Part shown: positions 29,137 through 61,989 of the stretch, in pieces
Layout of the letters: each line of letters starts with the position of its first letter
Numbering within the stretch: the stretch's first letter is position 1
Source: Kribbella pratensis
GTDB lineage: Bacteria; Actinomycetota; Actinomycetes; Propionibacteriales; Kribbellaceae
Assembly: GCF_004366075.1 (NCBI RefSeq)
Contig: NZ_SODU01000005.1
Span: 434,001 to 498,000 of the forward strand
Length of the DNA stretch: 64,000 bases
Direction of reading: 5' to 3'
Notes under the pieces: generated by a model
What the model saw: the letters and a program-made list of their open reading frames with translations, nothing else
The model's database searches: none
What the model was told of the DNA's origin: nothing
Translations under genes and position numbers: made by a program

Positions 29137-29213
29137 GTAGCAAAGCCTAGACACCGCCACCGACAGTTTTCAAAGCCAGATCCCCTTATTTTCAAGGAGA
29201 TTCGGTGCAGCTC

Positions 29214-34459: not shown

Positions 34460-34499
34460 CACAGGAGAATCGCACAGAGGAGTCGGGCACAGGGAGCTA

Positions 34500-34694
34500 C
34501 GCCCGAGGAGTGGAGCTCGAGGAGTGCGCCCGTGGAGCGCGCACGGGGAGTGCGCGCGTGGAGTGCGCGCGTGGAGTGGCGCCCGTGGAGCGCGCGCGTG
34601 GAGTGCGCGCGTGGAGCGCGCGCGTGGAGTGGCGCAGGTGGAGCGGCGCACGGGAGTGCGCGCGGGGAGTGCGCGCCGGAGTGGCGTGCCGGGC
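34500..34694. repeat. short tandem repeat array upstream of the GH42 gene
   Basis: About a dozen imperfect copies of a 10-19 bp unit built on GTGGAGTGCGCGC and GTGGAGTGGCGC lie between the LacI stop (34695) and the GH42 operator. No gene is seen in this 280-bp gap; the array occupies most of the region in which a GH42 promoter would have to lie. Confidence 0.8.
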
Positions 34695-45167: not shown

Positions 45168-45284
45168 GGCGTTCTCCTCGCGCGGACCGCCACAACAGAG
45201 CCCGGGGCGGTGGGCGGGTAATCCTTTTCCTGGCTACCGTCGCAGTGTCGCGCATTGACGTCAAGGGCTTGTCCGGGGAAATCG

Positions 45285-45298
45285 GGAAAAGGTTTACA
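45285..45298. promoter_or_regulatory. LacI-type operator, family A variant
   Basis: GGAAAAGGTTTACA, reverse complement TGTAAACCTTTTCC, matches GGTAAACCTTTGCC (51761) at 11 of 14 positions, with the core GTAAACCTTT intact. It lies in the 179-bp region between the CE8 fusion (45167) and LacI-2 (45347), positioned for autoregulation. Confidence 0.65.
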
Positions 45299-45346
45299 TC
45301 ACGCTACCGGCAGCGATCCGCGCTGGGATCATGGTCCAATGGGCCG

Positions 45347-46389: not shown

Positions 46390-46875
46390 CCACCGCACAT
46401 ACAACCCACCCGCCCCACCCCACGCACCACCGCACGTACCACCGCACGTACGACCGCACGTACCACCTCCGCACGCACCACAGCACGCCCCACCCCATCG
46501 CACGCACCAGCACCCGCCCCACCCACCGCATGCACGCACCACCGCACGTACCACCTCCGCACGCCCACCCCACCGCACGCACCACAGCACGCCCCACCCC
46601 ATCGCACGCACCAGCACCCGCCCCACCCACCGCATGCACGCACCGGCACCCGCCCCACCCCACCGGACGGACGCACGCACCACCGCACGCACCACCTCCG
46701 CACGCCCCAACCCCACCGCACGCACCACAGGACGCCCCACCCACCGCATGCACGCACCACCGCACGCACCACCTCCGCACGCCCCACCGGACGCACGCAC
46801 CACCACCACACACACCACCACCCGCCGCCCACCCCACCGCACGCACGCACCACCGCACGCCCCGCTCGAGCACGG
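46390..46875. repeat. C-rich tandem repeat tract downstream of LacI-2
   Basis: A 480-bp stretch made almost only of ACC, GCACG and CCCC blocks, with units such as CGCACGCACCACCGCACG and CGCCCCACCCCATCG repeated several times. A segment around 46480-46520 recurs at 46585-46625. Long open frames on both strands are by-products of stop-poor composition; no gene is supported. Confidence 0.8.
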
Positions 46876-47325: not shown

Positions 47326-50049
47326 TTAGGCGGGGGTGGTGAAGTGGTAGGTGCCTGATCCTGTGCGGCAGATGGTGGTGTCGGGGGTGGAGTCGAGGAC
47401 GGTGACGTCCTTCGCCTGGGTCAGGGGGTGGCCGGACTCCTTGGTGGCTTCCGGGTTTGTGGTGGGGATGTGGATGGTGGCGTCGGCGCCGGGTGGGACG
47501 GTTACGTCGAGGGTGAGGGTGCCGTCGGACTGTTGCCAGCGGGTGGTGACTCGGCCGGTGGGGGTGTCGTACGACGCTTCGGCCCAGTTCAGGCGGCCGC
47601 CGGGGCGGGGTTTGATGACGAGGTCGCGGAAGCCGATGGACTCGGGCGACTGGCTGATACCGGCGACATCGCCGTACAGCCATTCACCGACCGAGCCGAG
47701 CGAGTAGTGGTTGAACGAGTTCATCGCGACCGGCCCGAATCCGTTCTCCTCCGTCCACCCGTCCCAGCGCTCCCAGATCGTCGTCGCGCCGTGCTTGATC
47801 GAGTACCCCCAGGACGGATACCGGTCGTCGTGCAGCAGGTCGTACGCCAACTCGGCGTACCCGTACTTCGTCAGGATCGGGCACAGCAACGCGACCCCGG
47901 CGAACCCGGTCGTCAGCGATCGCCCGCGCGACTCGAGATCCGCGACCAGATGCTTCACCACCGCCTGCTCCGCCTGCTCGGGCAGCAACCCGAACGCCAA
48001 CGGCAACAGGTACCCGGTCTGGGTCTCCCCGCGAACCTTGCCCTCGGCATCGACGAACTCCGCCACGAACGCCGCCGCGATCTTGTCCCGCAATTCGCCG
48101 TACGCCGCTGCCTCGTCCGCCAATTCGAGCACCCGAGCGGCCGCCGCCGTGAACTCCACGCTCCGCGCGAAGTACGCGGTCGCGAGGACATCTCGATCGG
48201 TCTGTACGCCGAACTGGAGCCAGTCGCCGTAGTGACCGCTCGTCCGGTTCCGCCAGATCAGGTCGGGGTTGGCGCGGTGCACGTAGTCGACCCAGCGCCG
48301 CATCACCGGCCACGCGGTCCGCAGTACGCGCTCGTCGCCATAGATCCGGTACAACGTCCACGGCACGATCGTCGCCGCGTCGGCCCACGCCGGCGTACCG
48401 TGCCGACCGGTGATCACGTGTGGGATCACGTCCGGGATCGCGCCCTCATCGGTCTGTGCGACCGCGAGATCCGCGAACCAGTTCTCGAAGAACGTCAGTA
48501 CGTCGGCCTGGTACGCCGCTGTGGGCAGGAAGATCTGTGCGTCCGCCGTCCACCCGAGCCGTTCGTCGCGCTGCGGGCAGTCCGTCGGAACGCTGACGAA
48601 GTTGCCTCGCTGCCCCCACCGGATGTTGCTGAGCAACTGGTTGACGCCCGGATCCGAACACTCGAACCGTCCCGCGACCGGCGTGTCCGAATGCAGCACC
48701 CGCCCGGTCACGTCCTCCGCGGTCAGCTCACCCGGATAGCCGTCGACCTCGACGTACCGGAAGCCGTGCACGGTGAAGATCGGCTCGAAGAACTCCTCGT
48801 CCCCGCCGGCGCTGACGAAGTAGTCCGTGGCGTCGGCCGTGCGCAGGTTGGCGGTGTACAACTCGCCGTCCGCCTGCAGCATCTCGCCGTGCCGCAGCCG
48901 GATCCGGTCCCCGGCCTGGGCGCCACGCACCCGCAACCGGACGCGACCGGCGAGGTTCTGCCCGAGGTCGACGATGAAGCGTCCGGGTTCGAGCGCGGTC
49001 ACCGCGGTCGCCGCGACGTCCTCGGTCACCCGCACCGGGTCGGTCGTCACCGCGATCAGCGTCGACACGTCACCACCGAGATCGCCCGCCGGCGCCCACT
49101 CGCTCGCGTCGTACCCCGGGCTGCTCCAGTCACCGAGCTCGAGCCTGGCGTCGTACGACTCGCCCATCAGCAGATCGGCGAACCTGATCGGCCCGACGCG
49201 TTCGACCCAGCGGCCGTCGGTCGCGACCACGGTCCGCGAACCGTCCGGGTGGTCGACGACGAGTTGCGCGAGTAGCTGCGGCTTCTTGCCGTAGTGGTGC
49301 GCGTGGCTTCGTGTATCCCACCCGACGTACCCGGACCACCAGCCCTCGCCGAGGACGGCGCCGATGACGTTCTCGCCCTCGTGCAGCAGCTCGGTCGCGT
49401 CGTACGTCTGGTAGGCCACGCGCTTGCGGTAGTCGGTCCAGCCCGGTGTCAGCTCGTCGTTCCCGACCCTCTGACCGTTGGCGCTGAACTGGTAGAGACC
49501 GTGGGCAGTCGCATAGACCCGTGCCCTGGTGACTGGTTGGGTCAGCTCGAACGAGCGCCGGTAGTAACGTGGCGGCGCGATGGTTGCCTGCCGCACCGTC
49601 CGCGGCTCCGCGCGGTCGACGGGCGGCTCGAAGTACGGATCGGTCTCGTAGTCGTGCTCGATCCAGTGTGCTTCCCACTCGTCCTCGTGGAAGAGACCCG
49701 TCGCAAAGGTCGACTCCGCAGACGAAACCTGTCCGGCCGCATCCCGCACCGAGAGCCGCCAGACGTAGTCGGTCTGCGATGTCAACGGAGCACCACCGTG
49801 GTCGACGTACGTCTCCCGCTCGCTCCGCCATCCGCTGTCCCACACCTGTACGCCATCGCGCAGCACCTGCACGCGGAACGCGTCCTGCCGATCGCCACGG
49901 GTCGGCGACGTCAACCGCCAGCTCAGCCGCGGCCGCGCCGTACCGATCCCGAGCGGATCGACACGGTGCTCACAGCGCAGGTCGTACGCCGTCAGCCCAG
50001 TCAGGCCGGTCGCACTCGGCACCTCGGACAGCACCCAGGTCGTTGTCAC
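47326..50049 (-). CDS. GH78 alpha-L-rhamnosidase
   Basis: 907 residues from GTG 50049, overlapping the upstream stop (GTGA). GH78 layout: fibronectin-like start (LRCEHRVDPLGIGTARPRLSW), the Bac_rhamnosid N-domain (RARVYATAHGLYQFSANG, DELTPGWTDY), and the (alpha/alpha)6 barrel with SVPTDCPQRDERLGWTADAQ carrying the family acidic motif, AWADAATIVPWTLY, and TTIWERWDGW. No signal peptide, so cytoplasmic. Rhamnose is removed from rhamnogalacturonan oligosaccharides. It is co-transcribed with the GH127-type gene. Confidence 0.94.
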   Translation of the reverse strand: MTTTWVLSEVPSATGLTGLTAYDLRCEHRVDPLGIGTARPRLSWRLTSPTRGDRQDAFRVQVLRDGVQVWDSGWRSERETYVDHGGAPLTSQTDYVWRLSVRDAAGQVSSAESTFATGLFHEDEWEAHWIEHDYETDPYFEPPVDRAEPRTVRQATIAPPRYYRRSFELTQPVTRARVYATAHGLYQFSANGQRVGNDELTPGWTDYRKRVAYQTYDATELLHEGENVIGAVLGEGWWSGYVGWDTRSHAHHYGKKPQLLAQLVVDHPDGSRTVVATDGRWVERVGPIRFADLLMGESYDARLELGDWSSPGYDASEWAPAGDLGGDVSTLIAVTTDPVRVTEDVAATAVTALEPGRFIVDLGQNLAGRVRLRVRGAQAGDRIRLRHGEMLQADGELYTANLRTADATDYFVSAGGDEEFFEPIFTVHGFRYVEVDGYPGELTAEDVTGRVLHSDTPVAGRFECSDPGVNQLLSNIRWGQRGNFVSVPTDCPQRDERLGWTADAQIFLPTAAYQADVLTFFENWFADLAVAQTDEGAIPDVIPHVITGRHGTPAWADAATIVPWTLYRIYGDERVLRTAWPVMRRWVDYVHRANPDLIWRNRTSGHYGDWLQFGVQTDRDVLATAYFARSVEFTAAAARVLELADEAAAYGELRDKIAAAFVAEFVDAEGKVRGETQTGYLLPLAFGLLPEQAEQAVVKHLVADLESRGRSLTTGFAGVALLCPILTKYGYAELAYDLLHDDRYPSWGYSIKHGATTIWERWDGWTEENGFGPVAMNSFNHYSLGSVGEWLYGDVAGISQSPESIGFRDLVIKPRPGGRLNWAEASYDTPTGRVTTRWQQSDGTLTLDVTVPPGADATIHIPTTNPEATKESGHPLTQAKDVTVLDSTPDTTICRTGSGTYHFTTPA

Positions 50050-51758
50050 CAGGACCACTCCGTCTCGGGTCGGTGGAGCTCGTACTCACGGAGGCCGCCG
50101 GCGTGTTCCGGGCGGTCGCCGTACATCGGTCGGGACGTGCCCGGCGGGTCGATCGCGATCACGTCGTCGCCGCGCCAGGTGGTCCGGAACTCGTTGCCGG
50201 CCGCAAACTCTGTGGTGGTCTGCTCGACCATCGGGAACGTCACGGTGATGCGCTCCCCCGGCTGCGGCTTCGGAATCGACAGGTATCCGTCGGGCGCCCA
50301 GATCCGCTCGGCGCCGGTCCGCTCTTCGTCTCCGCGCTGCAGCCTCAGCCGCGCGTACCCGGCCCAGTCGGGGATGCGCACCCGGAGCTCGTCCATGGGC
50401 TCGTTGACGTGCAGCTCGACCTTGCCCTCGACCGGCAGGTGGCTGATCACGTCGACCGCATGATGGCCGCGCGTGAGCAGCAGGTTGACTCGGGTCAGCC
50501 GGTGGTCACCGGTGACGATGCTGTTCCACGCCCAGAACAGTCCTCGGACGCCTGAGCCGACACAGCATGCCTGGACGTCGTTGGTGTGGCCACGCCCCAG
50601 CGGTACGTCGGACACGTAGTCGTTCGGAGCGCCGTACCCACAGAAGGCGCCGAGGACGCGCTCGCCCACGTCGACGTGCGTCCGCCAGCCGGGCTCGTCC
50701 TGCGAGCGGTCCGGCGCGGACTCCACCCAGCTGACGTCCTGCAGCTGCGACGCGGCCAGGTGGTTGCGGACGAAGCGCTCGACGACCGCCCAGTACTCCG
50801 TGAGGCCGTTGCCGGCCAGCGTCGTACCCAGACCGATGAGGTCGACGAGCGAACAGGTCTCATGCTCGTACTGCTGGTCGGCAAGGTCACCTGGCGTCCA
50901 GCCGAACCGGGTGGCCTCGCCCAGCACCCAGTCGTAACTGCGGCGCACGAACTCGGTCAGCCCGTGGTCACCGGTGTGCCTGGCCAGTCGAGCAAGGCCT
51001 TCCAGGGTCCCGACCCGCGTGTGGAAGTGGCCACTGCGGTACGCACGGGCCGGGTTGAAGCTCCCGTCCGCGTTGAAGACACCGCTCTTCTCGACGATCA
51101 GCCGGGCGAACCACTCGCACAGCTCCAGCGCGTCGGTGTTGCCGGTCGCCTGGTGGTAGCGCAGCAGCGGCATGATCAGGCGGCCGGAGAACGAGGCCGG
51201 GTCGGGCGCGAGATGCAGGTCGATCGCGTTCGACGACGGCCAGCCGTCCTTCGTGTACTCCGACGCCGGGTAGAACCAGACGTCGCGCTCCTTGATCGCG
51301 ATCCGCTTCAGCGCCGCCACCTGGCGGTCCGCGGCCCGCTGCGCCTGTGGATCGTCGGCAGCGACCACTGCGGTCGTCATGGCGAGCAGAGTGGCGCGCT
51401 GGTCGATCAGGTTCGCATTCGGCAGCCAATGGCCTTTGGGGTGCGCCTGGCGGTAGGTGAGACCGTCGTCGGCGAGCAGTGCGAACAGCCGCTGCCGGTA
51501 GCGGTCGGCGATCGTGTCCCAGCGCGGGTCCCAGCCCTTGCCGCCGGTCATCTGGCGGGTCAGCAGGATCGCGTCGGTGAGCCGTCCGTGACTGGAGCCG
51601 TAGTCCCAGTCGCCGTGGTCCATGCGGGCAGGACGGGCGAGCAGGTTCGCGCTGAAGAACGGGATGCCGTCCAGGTCGTCGTCGGCCAGGCCGGTCACCG
51701 CGTTCATCGCCAGCGCGGCCCGGTCCTCGAGCAGCAGAGTCGCAGGGATCGTCGCCAT
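50046..51758 (-). CDS. GH127-superfamily (DUF1680-like) glycosidase
   Basis: 570 residues from ATG 51758. An (alpha/alpha)6 barrel (GYARL-type beta C-domain near the end) with the E-x-C pair at E300 and C302 (YEHETCSLVDL) and the CC pair at C398 and C399 (VQACCVGSG). These match the zinc-binding Glu and three Cys of GH127 beta-L-arabinofuranosidase, where one Cys is the nucleophile. No signal peptide. GH127 relatives (GH127, GH137, GH142, GH146) include RG-II enzymes. It opens the GH127-GH78 operon and is preceded by operator family A, whose 14 bp begin 2 bp upstream of the start codon. Confidence 0.82.
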   Translation of the reverse strand: MATIPATLLLEDRAALAMNAVTGLADDDLDGIPFFSANLLARPARMDHGDWDYGSSHGRLTDAILLTRQMTGGKGWDPRWDTIADRYRQRLFALLADDGLTYRQAHPKGHWLPNANLIDQRATLLAMTTAVVAADDPQAQRAADRQVAALKRIAIKERDVWFYPASEYTKDGWPSSNAIDLHLAPDPASFSGRLIMPLLRYHQATGNTDALELCEWFARLIVEKSGVFNADGSFNPARAYRSGHFHTRVGTLEGLARLARHTGDHGLTEFVRRSYDWVLGEATRFGWTPGDLADQQYEHETCSLVDLIGLGTTLAGNGLTEYWAVVERFVRNHLAASQLQDVSWVESAPDRSQDEPGWRTHVDVGERVLGAFCGYGAPNDYVSDVPLGRGHTNDVQACCVGSGVRGLFWAWNSIVTGDHRLTRVNLLLTRGHHAVDVISHLPVEGKVELHVNEPMDELRVRIPDWAGYARLRLQRGDEERTGAERIWAPDGYLSIPKPQPGERITVTFPMVEQTTTEFAAGNEFRTTWRGDDVIAIDPPGTSRPMYGDRPEHAGGLREYELHRPETEWSW

Positions 51759-51760
51759 GA

Positions 51761-51774
51761 GGTAAACCTTTGCC
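51761..51774. promoter_or_regulatory. LacI-type operator, family A, overlapping the ribosome-binding region
   Basis: GGTAAACCTTTGCC, two bases upstream of the GH127 gene start codon. Its position in the leader would block early transcription or translation initiation. It differs at one base from the 37139 site. Confidence 0.65.
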
Positions 51775-51834
51775 TCCTCCGCCCGCGAAGTCAACCGGCT
51801 ATCCACAGGCTGGCCGATCCGCCTTGTTTTCTTG

Positions 51835-51842
51835 AGGTTTAC
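51835..51842. promoter_or_regulatory. operator family A half-site before the MDR-RLP-kinase operon
   Basis: AGGTTTAC is the exact half of GGCAAAGGTTTACC. The other half is degenerate (CTTG). It lies 40 bp upstream of the dehydrogenase start at 51883, in the 124-bp divergent region shared with the GH127 gene. Confidence 0.35.
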
Positions 51843-51882
51843 TGGCGGAGACTGGTCGGACCTCGAGCAAAGGAGAGGCCTG

Positions 51883-52890
51883 ATGCGAGCAGCCGTTCTG
51901 GAGGCGCCACGGCAGGTTTCGGTGACCGACGTCCCGGATCCGGAGATGGGTGACGACGTGCTGCTCAGGATGCGTGCGGTCGGGCTGTGCGGCTCCGATC
52001 TGCATACCTGGAGCGGACACCATCCGTTCCGCAAACCGCCTGTGGTGCTGGGGCACGAGGGCGCCGGCGAGGTCGTGTCGTCGGGCGATCCACGCTTCCG
52101 TGCAGGCGATCGGGTCGCCGTGCTGCCGGCGTTGTCCTGCTGGGAGTGCACGCGGTGCGAGGCAGGTCATCCGCATCTCTGCAAACACAAACGGGTCCCC
52201 GGGCTGGGCTGGCCGGGGATGCTGAGCGAGTACTTCGTTGCGCCCGGCCGGGTGCTCGTGTCGTTGAACGACGAGATCGGGTACGGCGAGGGCGCGATGA
52301 TCGAGCCGGTCGCGGTGGCCTGGCGTTCCACGTCGGCGGTGCGCGCCGGAGATGCCGTCGCCGTCCTCGGTGGTGGGGCGATCGGAAGCCTCGCGGCGGC
52401 GCTGAGTCGGCACCGTGGCGCGCGGACCGTGTTGGTGAGCGACATCCAGCGGCACAACCGTGAGTTCCTCGTGTCACAAGGCGTTGAGACCGTGGTTGAT
52501 CCGCGCTCGTCGGACCTTGTGCCGCTCGGGATCGAGGTGAGCGGCGGGGACGGGTTCGATGTGGTCGTGGTGGCGTCCGGGCATCCGAGCTGTCTCGCGG
52601 AGGCTCTGGCGTTGTGCCGACCGCGCGGGCAGGTGGTGCTGCTGCCGATGTTCGGCGGCGCGTTGACGGTCGATCTGAATCCGGTGGTTCTCAAGGAGGT
52701 CACAGTGCAGGGGTCGACGATCTACACACCTTCCGATTTCGCGGCGGCGGCGCGGCTCGTCAACACGCGGAGTCTCGACGTACGTCCGTACATCTCCGAC
52801 GTGGTTCCACTCGACCGAACCCCGCAGACCCTGTTGGCGATCGACGGTGGGGCAGCGCACCTCAAGACACAGATCGATCCGACCCGATGA
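51883..52890 (+). CDS. zinc-dependent MDR alcohol/sugar-acid dehydrogenase
   Basis: 335 residues from ATG 51883 with AAAGGAGAGG upstream. Medium-chain dehydrogenase: catalytic zinc GLCGSDLHTW and LGHEGAGEV, structural zinc CWECTRCEAGHPHLC, NAD domain VAVLGGGAIGSLAAAL. Related enzymes oxidise polyols, L-threonine, L-galactonate and sugar alcohols. It overlaps the RuBisCO-like gene (ATGA), so it probably makes the ketone that the kinase and RLP then use. The order MDR-RLP-DUF1537 is not the standard apionate oxidoisomerase arrangement, so the substrate is open. Confidence 0.9.
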   Translation: MRAAVLEAPRQVSVTDVPDPEMGDDVLLRMRAVGLCGSDLHTWSGHHPFRKPPVVLGHEGAGEVVSSGDPRFRAGDRVAVLPALSCWECTRCEAGHPHLCKHKRVPGLGWPGMLSEYFVAPGRVLVSLNDEIGYGEGAMIEPVAVAWRSTSAVRAGDAVAVLGGGAIGSLAAALSRHRGARTVLVSDIQRHNREFLVSQGVETVVDPRSSDLVPLGIEVSGGDGFDVVVVASGHPSCLAEALALCRPRGQVVLLPMFGGALTVDLNPVVLKEVTVQGSTIYTPSDFAAAARLVNTRSLDVRPYISDVVPLDRTPQTLLAIDGGAAHLKTQIDPTR

Positions 52891-54266
52891 GCGCCGGAGA
52901 GGTCGTTGCCACGTATCTGGTCGAGACCTACCTACCGCTGGAACAGGCCGCCGAAGCCATCGCCGGCGAACAGTCGACGGGCACGTTCACGGCTGTCGCC
53001 AGGGAGACACCCGAGCTCCGCGAACGTTTCGCCGCCCGCGTCCTGTCCGTCGACGAACTCCCGCCCACCGGCAACCCGGACCTGCCAGGCACCACCCGCT
53101 CGCGGGTGCCGACCGGCAACCCGGACCTGCCGGGCACAACCCGGCCGCGGGTGCCCACCGGCAGCCCGGACTTGCCGGGCACCAACACCCACGACGCCTC
53201 GCGGGATGACGGGAAGCGGAGCGCTCGGGTGCGGATCGCGTTCGGACTGGACAACTTCGGGCCGTCGTTGCCCAATCTGCTCGCCGCGGTGGCCGGCAAC
53301 CTGTTCGAGCTCAGGCAACTCGCCGGCATCCGGCTTCTCGACCTCGACCTGCCGGCGCCGTTCGCCGAGCGCTATCCCGGCCCGCAGTACGGCCTCCGCG
53401 GGACTCGCGAACTGCTCGACCGGCCGGACGGCGTCCTGCTGGGCACGATCGTGAAACCGAGTATCGGGCTGCCACCCGAAGAACTGCGGCTCGTCGTCCG
53501 CGAGCTCGCCGAGGCGGGCATCGACTTCATCAAGGACGACGAACTCATGGGCAACCCGCCCCATTCACCGCTCGCCGACCGGATCGCGGTCGTCACCGAG
53601 GAGCTCGACAAGGTCGCCGCCCGTACCGGCCGGCGTCCCATGTACGCGTTCAACATCACCGACGATCTCGACCGCATGGCCGCCAACCACGACCTGGTTC
53701 ACGCGGCCGGCGGCACCTGCGTGATGGTGTGCGTGAACCTCGTCGGCTTCAGCGGCCTCGCCTGGCTGCGCGAACGCTGCGCCCTGCCCATCCACGGACA
53801 TCGCGCGATGACCGGTGTCTACACCCGAGCGCCGCAGCTCGGCATCGACTACGTCGCCTGGTCCAAACTCGCTCGCCTGGCGGGCGCGGATCACCTGCAC
53901 ACCAACGGCCTGTCCAACAAGTTCTACGAAACCGACGAGGAGGTCCTGCGCTCCATCACCGCCGTCCGCACACCACTCCTGGGAGGGTATGAAACCCTGC
54001 CCGTCCTCTCCTCCGGTCAGACGCCTGGGCTGGCTTCGGAGACGTACCGTCGCACCAACACAACTGATCTCCTGGTACTGGCCGGCGGCGGCATCCACGG
54101 CCACCCGAGCGGCCCAAGCGCAGGCGTCACCGCAATGCGCGCCGCCTGGTCCGCAGCAACCTCCGGCACCGACCTGACCACAGCCGCCAAACAGGTCCCC
54201 GAACTACAAGAAGCACTAAACAAGTTCGGCTCGCCGTACACCGGCAGCGGTCATGGGCCGGCCTAG
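52887..54266 (+). CDS. RuBisCO-like protein, 3-oxo-isoapionate-4-phosphate-type (OiaX-like)
   Basis: 459 residues. The large-subunit-like fold keeps the general-base segment GTIVKPSIGL (K190), the carbamylation motif DFIKDDE (K216-E219), HGHRAMTG (His303, His305) and GADHLHTNG, and LAGGGIHGHPSGPSAG for phosphate binding. Loop 6 GKLEG of true RuBisCO is not kept (NGLSNKFYE). Retention of Lys-carbamylation chemistry and the adjacent DUF1537 kinase point to the OiaX group, which cleaves 3-oxo-isoapionate 4-phosphate to 3-phosphoglycerate and glycolate in apiose breakdown. Residues 60-104 are an unusual triplicated insert. The precise reaction is inferred from family and neighbour. Confidence 0.82.
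   Translation: MSAGEVVATYLVETYLPLEQAAEAIAGEQSTGTFTAVARETPELRERFAARVLSVDELPPTGNPDLPGTTRSRVPTGNPDLPGTTRPRVPTGSPDLPGTNTHDASRDDGKRSARVRIAFGLDNFGPSLPNLLAAVAGNLFELRQLAGIRLLDLDLPAPFAERYPGPQYGLRGTRELLDRPDGVLLGTIVKPSIGLPPEELRLVVRELAEAGIDFIKDDELMGNPPHSPLADRIAVVTEELDKVAARTGRRPMYAFNITDDLDRMAANHDLVHAAGGTCVMVCVNLVGFSGLAWLRERCALPIHGHRAMTGVYTRAPQLGIDYVAWSKLARLAGADHLHTNGLSNKFYETDEEVLRSITAVRTPLLGGYETLPVLSSGQTPGLASETYRRTNTTDLLVLAGGGIHGHPSGPSAGVTAMRAAWSAATSGTDLTTAAKQVPELQEALNKFGSPYTGSGHGPA
53064..53198 (+). repeat. 45-bp tandem repeat inside the RuBisCO-like gene
   Basis: Three in-frame 45-bp units encode PTGNPDLPGTTRSRV, PTGNPDLPGTTRPRV and PTGSPDLPGTNTHDA. Units 1 and 2 are nearly identical in DNA; unit 3 has drifted. 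Confidence 0.9.
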
Positions 54267-54303
54267 ACATGGCCAGGCGCAGATCACGGGGGTGGGGCGT
54301 CGG

Positions 54304-54413
54304 CATGAGCGGGAGTACGCATGAGCGGGAGTAGGCATGAACGGGAGTAGGCATGAACGGGAGTAGGCATGAGGGGGACTATGCGAGTGAGAGTAGGCAT
54401 GAGCGGGAGTAGG
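54304..54413 (+). repeat. tandem array of ribosome-binding site plus ATG units before the kinase
   Basis: Five units of 16 bp (CATGAGCGGGAGTAGG with A/G and C/G changes) plus one 30-bp variant at 54368-54397. Each contains a GGGAG and, 4 bp on, the ATG of the next unit. Most of these ATGs open short overlapping frames of 7-19 codons. The kinase ATG at 54415 is the ATG that follows the last unit. Confidence 0.9.
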
Positions 54414-54414
54414 C

Positions 54415-55761
54415 ATGGTTGAGGCGGCGTTCTACGGGGACGACTTCACTGGGTCGACGGATGCGATGGTGCAGTTCGCGCGGGTCGGGTTGCGGGCGGT
54501 GCTCCTCGTGAGGTTGCCGTCGGCATCTGAGTTGCGGGAGCTGGCTGAGCGGTACGACGTGATCGGCGTTGCCGGGATCGCGCGATCGCTGCCGCCCGAT
54601 GAGCAGGAGGCCGAGCTGCGGCCGGTGCTGGAGGCGTTGCGGGATCTTGGGCCGCGCGTGCTGCAGTACAAGGTGTGCTCGACCGCGGACTCCTCCCCCA
54701 CCCGCGGCAGTATCGGACGCGCGCTGGAGATCGGGCGCGAGGTCTGCGGCCCTGCTGTCGTCCCCATCCTCATCGCTCAACCGGAGCTGGGTCGCTACAC
54801 CGTCTTCAGCCACCACTTCGCCGCCGAAGCCGGCACCATCTACCGCCTCGACCGCCAACCCACCATGTCCACCCATCCCGCCACCCCCATGCACGAATCC
54901 GACCTCCGCCACCACCTGTCCCACCAAACCACCCTCCCCCTAACCGCCCTCCACCTGACCACCTACACCAACCTCCCCACCACCTACACAAACCTCACCA
55001 ACCCCCGACGCCCGAGACAGTCCACCCGATCCACCTCCCAGTCCTCCACGCCCCAGTCCTCCACGCCCCAGTCCTCCACCGGCCCCGCTCTCCACCCCAC
55101 CGCCCAGTCTCCTGTTGTGCCCGGTGGAGTTGGGGCGGTGGTGCTGGATGCGTTGACTGACGAGGATCTACACAGGCTCGGGAGGGTGATTCTGCGGGAC
55201 GGGACCGCGGGTGAGGTCAGGTTTGTGATCGGGTCGGGTGGGATGTCTCGGGCGTTGGGGTTGGCGCTTCGGCCCGGCGGTGGGGCTGTTGGCTCGGGTA
55301 CGTCTGGTGCGGGTGGGCCGGTGTTGGTGGTGTCGGGCAGTCAGTCGCGCCGTACCGCCGAGCAGATCGAGCACGCACGATCGGCTGGGTGGATCGTGCT
55401 GCCGTTCGCCGACGACGTACCGCGGAAGGCAGTCGCCGCCATCGCAGCAGGAGCCGATGGCGTTGTCGTGCATACGAACGAGCTGTCACCGGACAAGCTC
55501 TCGCTGGTACCAGCCGGCCTTGCCGACGTGGTCCGGAAGGCCGCCGTACGCCGCGTCGTAGTAGCCGGCGGCGACACGTCAGGTCAGGTACTGCACCAGC
55601 TGGACGTCACCGCGTTGGAGCTGGCGCGATCCCTCTGCCCCGGCGTGCACCTCTGCCACGCAACCTCGCCGTACTTCGACGAAGTCCTCCTGAAACCCGG
55701 CCAGCTCGGCCCCGTCACGCTCTTCACGGAATTCCAGCAACGGTCGGTGACGAGTGCATAA
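54415..55761 (+). CDS. DUF1537-family four-carbon acid sugar kinase (OiaK-like)
   Basis: 448 residues. N-terminal domain FYGDDFTGSTDAM, with QYKVCSTADSSPTRGSIGRAL for sugar acid binding, and TPMHESDLRHHL typical of the family; the C-terminal nucleotide domain has VLVVSGSQSRRTAEQI, and VVVAGGDTSGQVL. The family phosphorylates erythronate, threonate, and 3-oxo-isoapionate (OiaK). Co-transcription with the RuBisCO-like gene favours the last. Around residues 190-225 is an inserted loop with TTYTNLP-TTYTNLT and a triplicate QSSTP. The upstream repeat array supplies its start signal. Confidence 0.85.
   Translation: MVEAAFYGDDFTGSTDAMVQFARVGLRAVLLVRLPSASELRELAERYDVIGVAGIARSLPPDEQEAELRPVLEALRDLGPRVLQYKVCSTADSSPTRGSIGRALEIGREVCGPAVVPILIAQPELGRYTVFSHHFAAEAGTIYRLDRQPTMSTHPATPMHESDLRHHLSHQTTLPLTALHLTTYTNLPTTYTNLTNPRRPRQSTRSTSQSSTPQSSTPQSSTGPALHPTAQSPVVPGGVGAVVLDALTDEDLHRLGRVILRDGTAGEVRFVIGSGGMSRALGLALRPGGGAVGSGTSGAGGPVLVVSGSQSRRTAEQIEHARSAGWIVLPFADDVPRKAVAAIAAGADGVVVHTNELSPDKLSLVPAGLADVVRKAAVRRVVVAGGDTSGQVLHQLDVTALELARSLCPGVHLCHATSPYFDEVLLKPGQLGPVTLFTEFQQRSVTSA
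55039..55083 (+). repeat. 15-bp triplicate inside the kinase gene
   Basis: CAGTCCTCCACGCCC occurs twice and a third time ending CGGC, encoding QSSTP-QSSTP-QSSTG at residues 209-223. It lies in a G-poor, C-rich plus-strand block (about 54830-55110) unlike the flanking DNA. Confidence 0.85.
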
Positions 55762-55836: not shown

Positions 55837-57048
55837 GTGGTGCGTCGTCCTGTTTTCGCCAGCCTGCTCGGCCTGGCCCTCCTGGCGGTGGCCGGGCCGA
55901 TGACGGCGTCGGCCGCGCCCGCAGCGACTTCAGCCCCTGGTGATTTCTACCAGGCGCCGTCGCCGCTACCCGCTGGTCGCCCCGGCACGCTGATCCGTAC
56001 TCGGCCCGCGACAGTCCTCGCGACCGCGCTCACGGCGAAGGCCACGACGATCATGTACCACTCGCGCGACGCGCAGAACGCGGATATCGCGGTGACCGGC
56101 ACGGTCTTCACACCAACGCTGCCGTGGCTGGGACGTGGCTCGCGGCCCTGGGTGAACCTCGCGGTCGGTACCCAGGGCCTGGGTCAGCAGTGCGCGCCGT
56201 CGAAGCAGTTCGTCGCCACGACCGAGCAGGAACTCGAACCGGTCGAGCTCCTGTTGGCGAACGGTTGGGGTGTCGTGGTCAGCGACTACGAGGGCTACAC
56301 CGCCGGCTCCACTCCGACCTATGTCGCGGGAGTCTCCGAGGCACACACGGTGCTCGACATGGCCCGTGCGGCTGCCTCCGTCCCGGGAACGGGCATCTCG
56401 GCGGCGACCCGCTGGGCCACGATGGGCTACTCGCAAGGCGGCGGCGCGTCGAGCTGGGCGGCGTCGCTGGCCCCTTCCTACGCGCCCGAGCTCAACCTCG
56501 TCACCGACGTATCGGGTGGCGTGCCGGCCGACGTCCGAAACGTCGCCGAGTCTCTGGACGGCAGCCTCATCGGCGAAGGTCTGCAGCTGTACGCGCTGAT
56601 CGGCCTGCAGCAGGCCTATCCCGGTCGGTTCCCACTGGACGAGGCTCTCAGCGTTGAGGGCAGGGCCACCGTGGCGTCGGTGAAGGCCCAGTGCGTCGTG
56701 CAGACGCTGGCCAGCTTCCCGTTGAAGAGGTTCAGCGACTACTCCACCGGCCAGACAATCCAGCAGTTCAACGCCCGGCCCGACGTCGCCTCTGTGTACG
56801 CGGAGAACAACCTGAGCACCCGGCCCGCTCCCGCCGTGCCGGTCTTTCAGTACCACGCAGCCCTGGACGAAATCGTTCCCATCGGCCAGGCACGCGCGCT
56901 CAACCAAGCCTGGTGCGCCAAAGGCACGCCCATGGTCTTCTCCGTCGTCCCCGGAGACCACATCACCGGCGAAACCACCGGCCTGCCCGGCGCGGTCTCC
57001 TGGCTGGCCGACCGCTTCGCAGAGCGGCCCCTGCAAACCACCTGCTGA
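55837..57048 (+). CDS. secreted lipase-family alpha/beta-hydrolase (LIP type)
   Basis: 403 residues from GTG 55837 with GATGAGG upstream. The Sec signal is RRPVFASLLGLALLAVAGP with cleavage near ASAAP. Family landmarks: GTVFTPTLPW, NLAVGTQGLGQQCAPSKQF, GWGVVVSDYEGY, nucleophile elbow GYSQGGGA, LDEIVPIGQA (Asp) and GDHITG (His). This is the secretory lipase group, also found in actinobacteria as acyl-ester hydrolases. A cleaved-wax or cutin-like substrate would fit plant material, but this is not shown. It ends 527 bp before the converging GH28 gene. Confidence 0.88.
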   Translation: MVRRPVFASLLGLALLAVAGPMTASAAPAATSAPGDFYQAPSPLPAGRPGTLIRTRPATVLATALTAKATTIMYHSRDAQNADIAVTGTVFTPTLPWLGRGSRPWVNLAVGTQGLGQQCAPSKQFVATTEQELEPVELLLANGWGVVVSDYEGYTAGSTPTYVAGVSEAHTVLDMARAAASVPGTGISAATRWATMGYSQGGGASSWAASLAPSYAPELNLVTDVSGGVPADVRNVAESLDGSLIGEGLQLYALIGLQQAYPGRFPLDEALSVEGRATVASVKAQCVVQTLASFPLKRFSDYSTGQTIQQFNARPDVASVYAENNLSTRPAPAVPVFQYHAALDEIVPIGQARALNQAWCAKGTPMVFSVVPGDHITGETTGLPGAVSWLADRFAERPLQTTC

Positions 57049-57575: not shown

Positions 57576-58757
57576 TCAGAAGTATTCGCAGTTCTCGGTG
57601 GGTTGCCGGTCCGTCGCTGCGGAGGTCAGGCTGAAGTTCTCGACCGGGGAGTGTGGGGTGTCGAGGATCTCGACGGTTCGGGGGGCTGAGCGTACGGCGA
57701 GGTTGGTGACGGTGATGTCGCGTACGACGGGGGCGTGGCCGCCGAACTGTTCCGGTTCCGCGTGCCGGGTGGTGATGAGGATCGCGGAGGTGGTGACCGC
57801 GTCGACGATCAGGTTCTCGACCGTGACGTGCTCGATCACGCCGCCGCGCAAGGAGTTCGTCTTGATGCGCAGCGCGTGGTCCACGCCCGCACCGGCAACC
57901 GGCCCACCCGCGGGGGTGGTGACGTGGAGGTCTCGGGCTTGGATGTTCGATGCTCCGGCGGAGGCTTCGCTGCCGATGGTCAGGGCTCCGTGGCCGGCGG
58001 TGAAGCGGCAGGATTCGATGAGGATGTTGCGGGACGGGCGGCCTGCGCGGCGGCCGTCGGCGTCGCGGCCGGACTTGACGGCGATGCAGTCGTCGCCGGT
58101 GGTGAACGAGCAGCCGGTGATGACGACGTTCTCGCAGGAGTCGGGGTTGCAGCCGTCGTTGTTCGGGCCGAGGGAGTCGACCGTGATCCCGCGGACGAGT
58201 ACGTCGGTGCAGAAGACCGGGTGGACCACCCACATCGGGGCGTTCACGATGCGTACGTCTTCGATGCGCACGCGACGGGAGGTGTGCGGCTGGATGAAGC
58301 TCGGGCGGAAGCCGTGACCGGGTTCGAAGATGCGGTCCTCGACGGGTACGTCGGCTTCGACCATGCGGAGCAGGCGTTCCCAGTCGGTGCGCGGGCGGGT
58401 GTTGCTCCACCAGGTGGCAGTGCTCGCACCGCCGTCGAGGGTGCCGGTGCCGGTGATCGCGATGTCGGTTTCGTCGTACGCGTAGATGAGAGGTGAGTGG
58501 CTGAAGCACTCGATTCCTTGCCAGCGGGTGCGGACGATCGGGTACGTCGTCGGGTCGGTGTGGAACCGGAGTGTCGCGCCGGCGGGCAGATGCAGTTCGA
58601 CGTTGCTGCGAAGCCGGATCGGCCCGGTGACGAATTCACCGTCGGGTACGACGACACGCCCGCCGGTGAGCGCACACGCGTCGATCGCCTCCGCAATCGC
58701 CCCAGTGCAGTCCGACCCGGCGCGAGCCCCGAAGTTGGTGATCAGGTAGTCGGTCAT
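57576..58757 (-). CDS. GH28 polygalacturonase-family protein, cytoplasmic
   Basis: 393 residues from ATG 58757, overlapping the upstream stop (ATGA). No signal peptide: starts TDYLITNFGARAGSD. Motifs NNDGCNPDS, TGDDCIAVKSG, IGSEASAGA and LRIKTNSLRGG with a canonical RIK. Last gene of the apiosidase-like/sialidase-like operon, so it probably removes galacturonate from imported RG-II or galacturonan fragments (inference). Confidence 0.92.
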   Translation of the reverse strand: MTDYLITNFGARAGSDCTGAIAEAIDACALTGGRVVVPDGEFVTGPIRLRSNVELHLPAGATLRFHTDPTTYPIVRTRWQGIECFSHSPLIYAYDETDIAITGTGTLDGGASTATWWSNTRPRTDWERLLRMVEADVPVEDRIFEPGHGFRPSFIQPHTSRRVRIEDVRIVNAPMWVVHPVFCTDVLVRGITVDSLGPNNDGCNPDSCENVVITGCSFTTGDDCIAVKSGRDADGRRAGRPSRNILIESCRFTAGHGALTIGSEASAGASNIQARDLHVTTPAGGPVAGAGVDHALRIKTNSLRGGVIEHVTVENLIVDAVTTSAILITTRHAEPEQFGGHAPVVRDITVTNLAVRSAPRTVEILDTPHSPVENFSLTSAATDRQPTENCEYF

Positions 58758-60814
58758 CGGAGAGCTTGGATGCGGAGGGCGTTGGCCAGGGGGACGGCTA
58801 TGACCCAGCTCGGGTTCCAGGTGTTGGTGTGGCCTCGGCGTTGCCAGTGGGTTTGGAAGACGGCTTCGCCTTGTTCGCCGGGAAGGGGGAAGTTCCAGTC
58901 GTTCGGGGCAGCGGCGACGGTTTGACTCAACGCGTGCAGGGTGGTTCGCGCGGCGGCGACGTACGCGGGGCGGTCGGTGGTCAGGCCGAAGGAGAGGAGT
59001 TCGTACGTCGGGAGGAAGGCGTCGAGGTGGTGGTTCTGCACGCTGACGGTCGGCCAGCCGATCGCGTTGAAGCCGGCGGCGTGAAGAGGCGAGTCCTCGT
59101 CCTGTTCCGGGGACCAGACGTACACCCAGGTGAGGAGCCAGTCGGCGGAGACTTCGCACCAGGTGGCGTACAGCGGGTCGCCGGTGCGGCGGAGGAGTTC
59201 GTAGGCGGCCATGAAGTAGTACATGCCGGCTTCTTTGTCCTCGCAGGCCGCGTCCAGGGTGGAGCGGGAGAACGGCCGGTCGAAGGTCCGCGCGTGCTGG
59301 TCGTGGTACCGGGACAGCCAGACGGTTGCTTCGGACAACAGTTCGTGAGAGTCGAGGACCGACGAGGCCTTCAGAGCGGCCAGTACGCACGGGATGCCCG
59401 CCGAGGAGACCGTCGTCGCAGCTGGCAGGCCGTCGAGTCGCCATCCGACCGGAAAGGTCCCGTCGGCCAACTGAGCGGTACCGCGGAGGAAGGTCATGGC
59501 TTCTTCGAGGGCGTTGAGCCACGACGGCGGGACGGGTTCGTCGTGGTCGCGGAAGAGGGTGATGATGTCGGTCAGGTCGCTGATTGTCTCGCCGTACGCT
59601 CGGCTGGAGACCATGGGGCGGTTACCGGCACGGAAGCTGGTCCAGCGGCGGGTGCTGACCTGGTACGCGTTGTGGCGCAGGCCGGGGGTCGGTGTCGGGC
59701 TGCCGGCCAGGTAGAACTCGACGGCCGCACGGCAGCGGTCGATGCGCAGCCGGTCCCGGGTGTTGAAGCCGACCTGGGCGTCGCACCAGGCGAGCTTCAG
59801 CGCCTGGCCTGTCCAGCCGTACATGAAGTGCCGAGACTTACGCGGCCCGTTGCCGGGAATGTCGCTGAACTTGGTGTACCCGGCGACGGTCCCGGACTGG
59901 TACCACCGGTTGTCCAGGGCAACAGTCTTCAACGTGATGAGCTCGACGAGAGCCAATCCGGGTGAACCAGCGGCCGTGAAGAGGGTGCGCGCACTCTCGA
60001 CAAGGTGCCGAAACGCGTGACCGCGGAGCTCCTGCCGTCCCCAGTCGAGGACCAGGTGCTGGGTGTATACCTCACCGGGACGCAGCGTGAGGTAGCCGTC
60101 GTCGGTCGCCTCGGTCTCCGCCTTGCTGACGTACCGGACGTCCTGCTTGCCGTCGAACATCAGTACGCCGCTGAGCGCCGCGATCACCGGACCGTCCTGC
60201 CGGATCGCGCCGAGCGAGCCGTACCGGACCTGGCCGTCGCCCGAGCGGCGTGCCTGCGGGCGCGAGATGACGGACAGCCAACGGCGTTCGCGCCCCTCGC
60301 GCCATTCGAGGTTGGCGCCGGGGATCGGGAGCCGGTCCTCCTCGGCGACGAAGCCGCCGCCGGGTGTCGGGCCGATCCGCGGCACGGCGCGGGCCGGGTC
60401 GGCGGACGGGTTGTCGTTGTAGATCACGCCGGGGATGGTGAGCTGGCTGTCCTTCACCCTGCCGAGGTCGAGCAACAGTCCGACGGCGAGGTCGGCGACG
60501 CGGCGCTTGCTCGTGTTACGCCAGCAGAGCTCGAGGTTCAACCGGTCGCCGTCGTCGAACGCCAGCCGCACCTCGACCGCGAGCGGTCCGGTCCGGCAGC
60601 CCGCCCGGTGTTCGCCCGGCCGCCGCGAGATCCACCACCCGTCGGGACACGTCAGCGGGCTGGGCTGCCAGGGGCGACCGGCCGAGCAGGTGAGGAGGTC
60701 GCCCAGCGGGCGTTCCAAGTAGACCGGCCCGTCGACCTGGCCGAACTCGAGCACCACACCGTCCGGTGTGCGACGCAACGAAGCCTGGCGCGGACCAGAC
60801 GTCAGCGCGGGCAT
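58754..60814 (-). CDS. uncharacterised large cytoplasmic protein, probable (alpha/alpha)6 fold
   Basis: 686 residues, no signal peptide. The N-terminal 250 residues are beta-rich (LNLELCWRNTSKRRVADLAVGL). The rest is helical with W/Y-rich segments (HFMYGWTGQALKLAWCDAQ, VSTRRWTSFRAGN, EAGMYYFMAAYELLRRTGD, SPEQDEDSPLHAAGFN). Start ATG overlaps the previous stop by one base (TGATG). The architecture resembles glycosidases or lyases with a beta-sandwich plus helical toroid. Situated between the apiosidase-like pair and GH28, it is a candidate for a pectin or RG-II side-chain enzyme of unassigned family. Confidence 0.72.
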   Translation of the reverse strand: MPALTSGPRQASLRRTPDGVVLEFGQVDGPVYLERPLGDLLTCSAGRPWQPSPLTCPDGWWISRRPGEHRAGCRTGPLAVEVRLAFDDGDRLNLELCWRNTSKRRVADLAVGLLLDLGRVKDSQLTIPGVIYNDNPSADPARAVPRIGPTPGGGFVAEEDRLPIPGANLEWREGRERRWLSVISRPQARRSGDGQVRYGSLGAIRQDGPVIAALSGVLMFDGKQDVRYVSKAETEATDDGYLTLRPGEVYTQHLVLDWGRQELRGHAFRHLVESARTLFTAAGSPGLALVELITLKTVALDNRWYQSGTVAGYTKFSDIPGNGPRKSRHFMYGWTGQALKLAWCDAQVGFNTRDRLRIDRCRAAVEFYLAGSPTPTPGLRHNAYQVSTRRWTSFRAGNRPMVSSRAYGETISDLTDIITLFRDHDEPVPPSWLNALEEAMTFLRGTAQLADGTFPVGWRLDGLPAATTVSSAGIPCVLAALKASSVLDSHELLSEATVWLSRYHDQHARTFDRPFSRSTLDAACEDKEAGMYYFMAAYELLRRTGDPLYATWCEVSADWLLTWVYVWSPEQDEDSPLHAAGFNAIGWPTVSVQNHHLDAFLPTYELLSFGLTTDRPAYVAAARTTLHALSQTVAAAPNDWNFPLPGEQGEAVFQTHWQRRGHTNTWNPSWVIAVPLANALRIQALR

Positions 60815-61989
60815 CAGGACGCCCGGCGGATCTGAATGGCCTGGTACTGCGTGCCGGGCAGCCGGACCGTCAACGTGCCGGCATCAGCGACACTCTCGCG
60901 AGTACGGCGTACCGAGTGGTTCCACACGTCCAGTACGTCGACGTCGTACTCGCCCTCGGGCAGTGAGAACGTCCGGTCCGGGAACTGGTGCTCGCCGAGG
61001 TACTGGAGGTAGTACGAGCCAGGCACCGCGAGCGTCGGGGCGTCGCGGTAGTCGTCGATCGGCTCCACACCGGCGGGCAGTTCGTCCAGCACCTCCCGCA
61101 ACAGCCGCAGCCGTCGCGCGACAACACCAGTGGGCCGACTGCCGCCGTCCGACCACGGCACGACGCTCACGGACGACGGGTCGACGTACCACTCGCCGTG
61201 CGTCACGTAGGCCCCGCGAACTATCCCCTCCCAGATGCGGGTCAGCATCTCCTCAGGCCGGAGGCTGGTGTCGGGGGTAGTGCCGTTGCCTTCGTGGCCA
61301 CATGCGTCAACGAAGACGGGCTTGGCGTGGGCCACACGCAACGCGGACACTCCACGGAGGTTCTCCAGCCGGACGCTCAGGTGAGTCAGCCAGGGCGGTC
61401 CCGGGTCGGTTGCCTCGTGCATCGAGATCAGGTGGCGACTGGAGTCGAGTTCCGCGATCAGCTCGGCCAACTCTCGCGACCTGTCAGCGGACTCCAGGCA
61501 CCAGGTGACATTCCGATAAGCGGCCAGCCGATTCACCGCAGCGCGAACAACAGACGAGTCCGTCGGCAGGACGATGTCAGCCACGATGTCGGCCGCCAGC
61601 AGGTCACGGACCTGGTCCTCGATGCCGTCGGACACCCGCAGCCGGACGCGGTTGAACGGCGAGGCCGCGAGCGCCGGGCGTGCGGCAGCCCACTGCGCCG
61701 GATCACCGAACCACGTGGTCGTGAGCGGGTGGTACGGCGTACCGTCCGCCCAGCGCAATGTGGTGCCAGCACGACGGACAGGACCATGCGAGGTCGCGGG
61801 CGTGCACTCCACAGTCCCGCCGTCGTACGACCAAACGCCTTCCAGATCAGGGCTGTAACGGACCACCCACCCGTCGTCCGACTGGAACGGTTCGACGTAC
61901 GCGGTGGCGCCGGACGTGTGGCGGAACAGCACGCCTGCCGGCGCGGGCACAGGTAGTTCGAGCACGTCCCAGCGTGCTACTGACGTCAT
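60814..61989 (-). CDS. apiosidase-like (DUF5060/DUF4038) paralogue lacking both catalytic Glu
   Basis: 391 residues. It aligns along most of its length with the next gene: RLAAYRNVTWCL against RLAAYRNVWWSL, KPVFVDACGHEGNG against KPVVIDEIGYEGNA, and EMLTRIWEGIVRGAYVTHGE against EMVHRFWQGMSLGGYVGHGE. The acid/base Glu (E250 in the partner) is Ala168 here, and the nucleophile Glu (E328) is Ala229. About 80 residues of the barrel are shortened. The C-terminal sugar-binding domain (YYLQYLGEHQFPDRTFSLPE) is kept. Likely a non-catalytic subunit, sensor or binding protein rather than a pseudogene, since the frame is intact and overlaps neighbours on both sides. Confidence 0.8.
   Translation of the reverse strand: MTSVARWDVLELPVPAPAGVLFRHTSGATAYVEPFQSDDGWVVRYSPDLEGVWSYDGGTVECTPATSHGPVRRAGTTLRWADGTPYHPLTTTWFGDPAQWAAARPALAASPFNRVRLRVSDGIEDQVRDLLAADIVADIVLPTDSSVVRAAVNRLAAYRNVTWCLESADRSRELAELIAELDSSRHLISMHEATDPGPPWLTHLSVRLENLRGVSALRVAHAKPVFVDACGHEGNGTTPDTSLRPEEMLTRIWEGIVRGAYVTHGEWYVDPSSVSVVPWSDGGSRPTGVVARRLRLLREVLDELPAGVEPIDDYRDAPTLAVPGSYYLQYLGEHQFPDRTFSLPEGEYDVDVLDVWNHSVRRTRESVADAGTLTVRLPGTQYQAIQIRRAS

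Follow-up and report, generated by a model that had tools for sequence, protein, structure and literature searches.

An operon for a medium-chain dehydrogenase/reductase (MDR), a RuBisCO-like protein (RLP) and a DUF1537 kinase lies in a stretch of 64,000 nucleotides of DNA from the soil bacterium Kribbella pratensis (G000:C5:434001-498000, hereafter the window), and our results point to the RLP and the kinase as a putative decarboxylation module for a branched sugar acid of rhamnogalacturonan II (RG-II), most likely L-aceric acid. Gene context and sequence comparison bring this reading close to, though not quite up to, an even chance. The MDR gene has been lost about three times within Kribbella, while the RLP and the kinase stayed under purifying selection. 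Throughout, G numbers denote the genomes compared and L numbers the loci, G000 being the genome of the window (8.39 Mb, 8 contigs, rated 100% complete). Gene coordinates were taken from the list of open reading frames, translation and family scans, as the automatic gene caller gives some wrong starts and shadow genes.

The operon and the loss of its dehydrogenase gene

The operon and the elements beside and within it are as follows.

50049-51758, minus strand: c18, glycoside hydrolase (GH) 127/146-like, 570 aa, divergent from the operon, candidate aceric acid hydrolase
51759-51882, no strand: intergenic region common to the operon and the divergent c18 gene
51883-52890, plus strand: MDR zinc dehydrogenase, polyol/threonine-dehydrogenase-like, 335 aa (ADH_N and ADH_zinc_N)
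52887-54266, plus strand: RLP, 459 aa (RuBisCO_large and RuBisCO_large_N)
53063-53184, plus strand: in-frame 45-bp tandem repeat, 2.7 copies, in a loop of the RLP N-domain, unit PTGNPDLPGTTRPRV
54302-54417, plus strand: array of 16-bp tandem repeats separating RLP and kinase, unit GGCATGAGCGGGAGTA, 7.4 copies
54415-55761, plus strand: DUF1537 kinase (SBD_N and NBD_C), 448 aa; low-complexity insert near aa 180-240

The sequence-only reading that preceded this work had described the three genes as one operon with an ATGA overlap, and this was confirmed: all three are on the plus strand and of the families named, the RLP ATG (52887-52889) lies over the MDR stop (52888-52890), and 148 bases separate the RLP stop from the kinase start. 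The kinship that it had proposed with OiaX and OiaK also stands, these being the best NCBIfam models for the RLP (NF042437, 410.8 bits) and the kinase (NF042436, 258 bits in three stretches), though both scores are far under the curated cut-offs of 700; the OxoTetrKin model reached 137 of 350 on the kinase. OiaX scores above 700 bits were found in none of 27 RLP genomes (best 549) and in none of 385 genomes of one class. From the work of Carter et al. in 2018, OiaK is reportedly a 3-oxo-isoapionate kinase and OiaX a 3-oxo-isoapionate-4-phosphate decarboxylase, in a branch of D-apiose catabolism. The best PDB match of the RLP is 3nwr, and residues K189, K216, D218, E219, H305, R306, H338 and K345, which we take to equate to RuBisCO active-site positions, are present in it and kept in the aligned rows read. 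For the MDR, the best NCBIfam models are PRK05396/tdh at about 169 bits, far below the cut-off, and its PDB neighbours include xylitol, sorbitol and L-threonine dehydrogenases.

The earlier reading did not mention the in-frame repeats of the RLP and kinase genes, the pectin glycosidases nearby or the divergent GH127-like gene. The repeat unit in the RLP loop is 15 aa long and present as a single copy in 10 of the 13 main-clade RLPs in the alignment, and different units are expanded at the same loop in G009 (L113) and G020 (L114). The consensus unit of the 16-bp array contains an ATG and stands directly before the kinase, and a perfect 15-bp repeat (55037-55079) lies within the low-complexity insert of the kinase.

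RLP orthologs occur in 15 of the 37 Kribbella genomes (G000 and G001-G036), namely 13 of a main clade plus G016 and G018. In nine of the 13 main-clade genomes the MDR is directly upstream of the RLP, with one ortholog each (E <= 1e-60), and the ATGA overlap is visible in all seven MDR-carrying Kribbella junctions read, a set to which G009, G020 and the Streptomyces loci do not belong; two Streptomyces loci (L048 and L145) also have the genes in the order MDR, RLP, kinase but lack the overlap, and the arrangement is thus more than chance. The MDR has no match at E <= 1e-60 anywhere in the genomes G012, G013, G014 and G025. When 60 kb were compared, the MDR gene was the sole stretch near the operon of more than 400 bases that is present in G000, G005 and G022 and missing from the four MDR-less loci, which for their part have no new stretch in common. 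Other uncovered stretches were private to one locus, at the ends, or 23-27 kb upstream of the MDR, the last being seen in all three MDR-carrying loci compared. The junctions are of three types: in G012 the last part of the MDR gene still precedes the RLP start, in G013 and G014 the RLP looks fused to the MDR start, and G025 has a third form. Even where the MDR is deleted, the leader and the Shine-Dalgarno sequence of the 51759-51882 region are kept.

On the tree (15 rows, 5481 columns) the loss of the MDR needs three changes, a count that hangs on the short branches of G000, G005, G012, G022 and G025 (seven of the 12 inner branches are well supported and one is open). The ratio of nonsynonymous to synonymous substitution rates (dN/dS) in the catalytic part of the RLP was 0.075-0.080 in the four pairs that include a genome lacking the MDR, 0.05-0.09 in the remaining four, and that of the MDR was 0.09-0.15 in its four pairs. 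The earlier reading had allowed that the MDR may supply the ketone by a different route. As a necessary supplier the MDR is not supported, and an indispensable MDR was rejected: the gene is cleanly deleted, with three junctions, in four of 13 close relatives that keep RLP and kinase, and for this reason it can be at most one of two interchangeable suppliers.

The other supplier may be c4, a PF01177 protein (aspartate/glutamate racemase family) that adjoins many other RLP-kinase pairs. With rows L133, L134 and any containing a stop left out, c4 has one invariant Cys in 54 of 54 sequences and, further on, an AQ-x-SM motif that on our reading would occupy the place of the second Cys of the racemases. 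In Kribbella, c4 is unlinked to the RLP locus and found in a partly shared neighbourhood in G000 (C2:1775514-1776242), G005, G022, G012, G013, G014 and G025; it is absent from the genomes G009, G017, G020, G031 and G032, and G001 has only a relative at 36-42%. The MDR is missing in four of the seven main-clade genomes with c4 and in none of the six others, and G016 and G018 have c4 and no MDR. This pattern is suggestive of c4 and the MDR being interchangeable as ketone makers, and only suggestive because three losses are few. The apparent mutual replacement could arise because a reductase followed by the MDR would give the same ketose as an isomerase. A hint, and the only one, that c4 could be a sugar isomerase is the gene order in L184, where a c4 relative is followed by an FGGY kinase and a class II FBP-type aldolase, that is, in the order isomerase-kinase-aldolase. 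Both L183 and L184 have a c4-like gene, an FGGY kinase, one or more aldolases and a DUF1537 kinase (in L183 assigned by a look at the sequence) and no RLP match, and they may represent another sugar pathway that could reveal the reaction of c4.

RLP clade and GH127-related genes

A quick RLP tree was made of 102 rows, after L037, L053, L082, L085 and L086 (stop in the match) and L134 and L138-L140 (duplicates or short) had been dropped. The 15 Kribbella and Streptomyces RLPs fall inside an actinobacterial clade of 49 (SH-aLRT 96), and the RLPs whose loci have ApnO only fall outside it; of the other 34 members, 33 have c4 in the locus and 33 a BT1003-type gene. Four positions beside the active site (308, 309, 329 and 382 of the window RLP) read M (1.00), T (0.87), A (1.00) and L (1.00) in the 15 Kribbella and Streptomyces proteins, M (0.90), F (0.72), A (0.90) and L (1.00) in 29 actinobacterial RLPs of the c4 type, and G (0.95), W (1.00), W (0.89) and Q (1.00) in 19 ApnO-only RLPs. 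The sharing of these residues, which extends to the MDR-less Kribbella RLPs (L118 and L119), argues for one substrate across the actinobacterial clade. Where two RLP systems meet in one genome, as in G087 (MDR-type and c4-type RLPs) and G089 (an ApnO-type RLP plus a second RLP with kinase, c4 being 11 kb away), different substrates are suggested. A second, distant RLP (28-33% identity, L128-L132) was seen in G019, G020, G039, G044, G057 and others of the order. The locus L063 (JASDDH010000019.1), labelled Planococcus, has its RLP and gene order within the Microbacterium-type group and is possibly a mislabelled or contaminating contig.

The link to aceric acid comes from glycosidases. We surveyed 108 loci of 4.2 to 64 kb with bit-score thresholds of our own, absence meaning absence within the sequence covered; L033-L035 were left out as copies of L115-L117, L148 is itself the source of the query AraL148, and L140 covers the place of L112 again. 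A GH127-related gene was found in none of 21 ApnO-only loci, in 34 of 47 with c4 only, in all with ApnO and c4 (3/3) or c4 and MDR (2/2), in 11 of 16 MDR-only loci (the five without are Bacilli) and in 6 of 19 loci lacking all these partners. Altogether 39 of the 52 loci with c4 have one, as do 15 of 15 main-clade Kribbella and Streptomyces loci, the latter all through c18. A BT1003-type gene precedes the RLP match on its strand in L044, L110 and 28 c4-only loci, the end of that gene lying 3-78 bp away. The type was assigned by similarity to the L056 protein, which scores 762 bits on the aceric acid hydrolase model NF049879 (cut-off 950) and has as its best PDB match 5mqo, "Glycoside hydrolase BT_1003" (583 bits vs 352 for the next chain). 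In PMC10850190, BT1003 is named as the sole aceric acid hydrolase among the GH127/GH146 enzymes of the tree. No score on NF049879 above 950 bits was found in 58 genomes, the best match within G000 having 412 bits, and BT1003-type genes outside Bacteroides also fall below this cut-off.

Since the main-clade Kribbella have no BT1003-grade gene and the GH127 gene downstream is like an arabinofuranosidase (Araf), the aceric link in the window rests on c18. This gene is divergent from the operon in 13 of 13 main-clade Kribbella genomes and in two Streptomyces loci; in Paenibacillus L181 the four genes c18, c4, RLP and kinase follow one another directly, all on one strand, and in Paenibacillus L179 the same four share a strand with c18 7 kb off. 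It occurs in 13 of the 37 Kribbella genomes, exactly those with a main-clade RLP, and because the two are physically linked this co-occurrence counts as one unit of inheritance; G016 and G018 hold a BT1003-type gene in its place. The motif of clan GH-P is given in PMC10850190 as the Zn site Glu-x-Cys plus Cys-Cys, and E300-x-C302 and C398-C399 of c18 are invariant in 10 of 10 sequences. With hhalign, c18 matched the BT1003-type alignment at 91%, the E-x-C being aligned and the C-C not. Foldseek on the c18 model (pLDDT 58) ranked GH127/GH146 structures 1-19 (E 5e-11 to 6e-8). By these comparisons c18 resembles GH127/GH146 enzymes, whereas VIA-align ranks its barrel nearest to epimerases.

The proposed pathway and its alternatives

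L-Aceric acid, among the rarest sugars of plants, is 3-C-carboxy-5-deoxy-L-xylose; its 2-ketose is HOOC-C(OH)(CHOHCH3)-CO-CH2OH, homologous to 3-oxo-isoapionate, which is HOOC-C(OH)(CH2OH)-CO-CH2OH. The proposed pathway would begin with a cysteine glycosidase of the GH127 clan, c18 here and the BT1003-type enzyme elsewhere, which would free aceric acid; the motif was seen, the fold is probable, and the specificity is presumed. Next, c4 would convert the aldose to the 2-ketose, which is a beta-keto acid with one carbon more than 3-oxo-isoapionate; alternatively, a reduction and then polyol oxidation by the MDR would lead to it. This interchange is suggested by gene loss, and its chemistry is presumed. 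By analogy with OiaK the DUF1537 kinase may phosphorylate the CH2OH beside the ketone, and by analogy with OiaX the RLP may decarboxylate the phosphorylated ketose to a 5-deoxypentulose 1-phosphate, from which an aldolase encoded elsewhere would give dihydroxyacetone phosphate and acetaldehyde. As a whole, with the RLP decarboxylating a phosphorylated 3-C-carboxy-5-deoxypentulose as a new activity, c4 as aldose-ketose isomerase replaced in some lineages by the MDR, and c18 as a new family of GH127-related aceric acid hydrolases, this scheme is possible but distinctly doubtful. For the fate of aceric acid after its release by the hydrolase, no paper was found in the literature searched, which omits most subscription journals. 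The full name of aceric acid appears in a reference of PMC12168206, which puts the composition of RG-II at 13 different sugars with more than 20 types of linkage.

Several observations weigh against aceric acid as the substrate. The loci within a lineage are not independent and Actinobacteria dominate the counts; counting c18 as GH127-related is our own judgement, and in 13 of the 52 c4 loci the sequence covered contains no gene related to GH127. The best NF049879 score listed for main-clade Kribbella is 456 bits vs 626-684 in G016, G018 and G057. On c18 itself, the Pfam GH127 scores are below gathering level (catalytic 19.6 vs 24.9, middle 21.6 vs 24.2), the predicted structure is weak (pLDDT 53 with 12 rows, 58 with 10 rows including two from Paenibacillus), and the 50 rows listed by VIA-align, led by cellobiose 2-epimerases (Z 21), are barrel epimerases and hydrolases of other families, none of them GH127. 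The GH127 gene downstream (L135) is Araf-like, and the operon has no aldolase within it. In G016 and G018 an ApnO-type gene is divergent beside the RLP, in genomes that also have c4 and the aceric acid hydrolase, and in Paenibacillus L182 (L179 is alike) a Gfo/Idh gene stands one gene from c4, as an apiose dehydrogenase might. Bacteroidota RLPs of the c4 type keep the ApnO-type residues and Bacilli RLPs differ again, so the residue signature does not track c4 everywhere.

The sequence-only reading had suggested a possible variant of apiose catabolism. ApnO is an oxidoisomerase: apionate is oxidised and a hydroxymethyl group moved, as in ketol-acid reductoisomerase chemistry run backwards. It most likely corresponds to proteins with PF16896 and KARI_N, an identity assumed from gene context and general background and not from a named model. 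PF16896 has no match in a whole-genome profile search of G000 or in any of the 13 main-clade Kribbella RLP genomes; it is present in three of 58 relatives (G016, G018 and G037) and in 32 of 48 other RLP genomes, and absent from six Bacteroidota genomes and Aeoliella, all of which keep RLP, kinase and c4. The ApnL model NF049900 has no match in G000 or any Kribbella and matched five of 45 genomes, none over the cut-off; this absence is weak evidence because the model also fails on genomes of ApnO type, G090 and G095 among them. The lack of ApnO and ApnL that the earlier reading noted for the window thus extends to the whole genome within reach of profile searches, and the canonical apiose pathway was dropped as the default since neither PF16896 nor the ApnL model has a match in G000. 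In L168 (Microbacterium, by family scan) the ApnO-type gene stands in an operon separate from the RLP, beside a DAK-type kinase (732 bits, cut-off 492) and with an RpiB-like protein (204 bits on RPI_actino, cut-off 168; 143 bits on the D-erythrulose-4-phosphate isomerase model, cut-off 240), a triosephosphate isomerase-like protein, a TIM barrel resembling xylose isomerase and a match to the ApnL model (205 of 750 bits). L169 (Microbacterium, by similarity) has a similar gene set, and in its genome an ApnL-model match adjoins the ApnO-type gene. Because this operon stands apart, apiose seems to be catered for without the RLP in these two loci. A haloarchaeal plasmid (L147, NZ_CP144462.1) carries an RLP, a DUF1537 kinase, a PF16896-like gene and a GntP permease, an archaeal ApnO-type set.

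The main rival to aceric acid is an ApnO-independent apiose route, in which the MDR or c4 and other enzymes would yield 3-oxo-isoapionate for the OiaK- and OiaX-like proteins. OiaK and OiaX are indeed the nearest curated families, the window has an apiosidase-like domain in a pectin context, and in G016 and G018 a related RLP adjoins an ApnO-type gene. However, the hydroxymethyl shift made by ApnO has no candidate here, G000 lacks PF16896 and ApnL-model genes (of which the ApnL absence alone is weak), the residues beside the active site are unlike those of ApnO-type RLPs, and at E 0.001 the apiosidase-like protein of the window has 4n0r as its one PDB match. We regard this route as unlikely; aceric acid seems the likelier substrate, given that GH127-like genes go with this RLP clade and that the ApnO operon is kept apart in two Microbacterium loci. 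Of the variant-apiose proposal there remains the kinship with OiaX and OiaK; its alternative, another branched or C5 acid, has gained in that a branched acid, aceric acid, is now preferred on sequence grounds. A different sugar acid, branched or C5-C6, whose secondary alcohol the MDR would oxidise and whose keto form the kinase and RLP would then use, is less probable again: the Bacilli loci L069, L076 and L079 do have a homologous MDR by the RLP-kinase pair, a DctP-type TRAP (tripartite ATP-independent periplasmic) transporter and a class II aldolase-like gene, and the MDR is under purifying selection where present, but the gene was lost repeatedly while the RLP was kept, family scans recognised no TRAP or aldolase gene among the neighbours of the Kribbella operon, and the Bacilli and Kribbella MDRs are 34-38% identical with RLPs in separate clades.

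Distant members can escape whole-genome profile searches, and the canonical OiaX pathway might be present with upstream genes that are too diverged or missing from the assembly. We find this very improbable, given the completeness and few contigs of G000, the success of the same PF16896 search in the other RLP genomes and its failure in all 13 main-clade Kribbella. A methionine-salvage enzyme or other form IV enolase or isomerase unrelated to sugar acids has the RuBisCO superfamily in common with the RLP and receives almost no credence from us, as the RLP is tightly linked with a DUF1537 kinase and pectin genes; the methionine-salvage type, which had been named as the grouping that would speak against a sugar acid, was ruled out by MtnW model scores of 161 and 200 bits vs 411 for OiaX (TIGR03332 cut-off, 513.6).

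Returning to the aceric acid reading, the window operon resembles the OiaK-OiaX system in its adjacent RLP and DUF1537 kinase, its RuBisCO-equivalent residues and its best models, and differs from it in scores far under the cut-offs, a genome without an ApnO-type gene or ApnL-model match, the extra MDR, the changed residues beside the active site and the linkage to GH127-like genes. With BT1003, the GH127 enzyme of Bacteroides RG-II degradation, c18 has in common the E-x-C and C-C residues of the clan, and BT1003-type genes head RLP operons in Microbacterium-type loci and L110; unlike BT1003, c18 lies outside GH127 by Pfam cut-offs, and the Kribbella main clade has no gene of BT1003 grade. The DUF1537 pathways for four-carbon acid sugars consist of a tetronate dehydrogenase, a kinase and a class II aldolase decarboxylase. 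They likewise combine a dehydrogenase, a DUF1537 kinase and a decarboxylating enzyme, whereas here the decarboxylase would be an RLP and the dehydrogenase is the dispensable MDR. If true, the aceric acid pathway would add a further natural reaction to those of RuBisCO-like proteins, give a function to PF01177 proteins annotated as racemases, and open what becomes of aceric acid to testing with five genes. The operon would show an ApnO-free route to an RLP even with apiose as the substrate.

Pectin genes around the operon

Further genes of the window are listed below.

37268-38668, plus strand: GH28
40155-41429, plus strand: GH28
42717-45167, minus strand: GDSL and pectinesterase protein
45254-46372, plus strand: LacI-family regulator
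47326-50058, minus strand: GH78 alpha-L-rhamnosidase
55837-57048, plus strand: lipase-family hydrolase (PF03583), directly downstream of the operon
57576-58760, minus strand: GH28 pectin hydrolase
60814-61989, minus strand: DUF5605 protein
61986-63425, minus strand: protein with DUF5060, an Apiosidase-like catalytic domain (PF13204, 46.8 bits, cut-off 26.5) and DUF5605
63407-64000, minus strand: BNR_2 sialidase-like protein, continuing past the end of the window

The families of the window (GH78, three GH28, GH2, GH42, pectinesterase, apiosidase-like, BNR and GH141-like) make the surroundings of the operon look like an RG-II pectin locus, a reading that follows from the family names of the genes. 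Two candidates were rejected here. The GH127 gene L135, 20 kb downstream of the RLP, is nearer to beta-L-arabinofuranosidases than to the aceric acid hydrolase, and the protein at 61986-63425 was not called a GH140 apiosidase because of its sole PDB match. Large degenerate tandem arrays were seen at 46393-46863, 34479-34692 and 30264-30490, partly within predicted frames, and a DUF222/HNH protein (27073-29160) has a 54-bp repeat near one end in addition to longer internal arrays.

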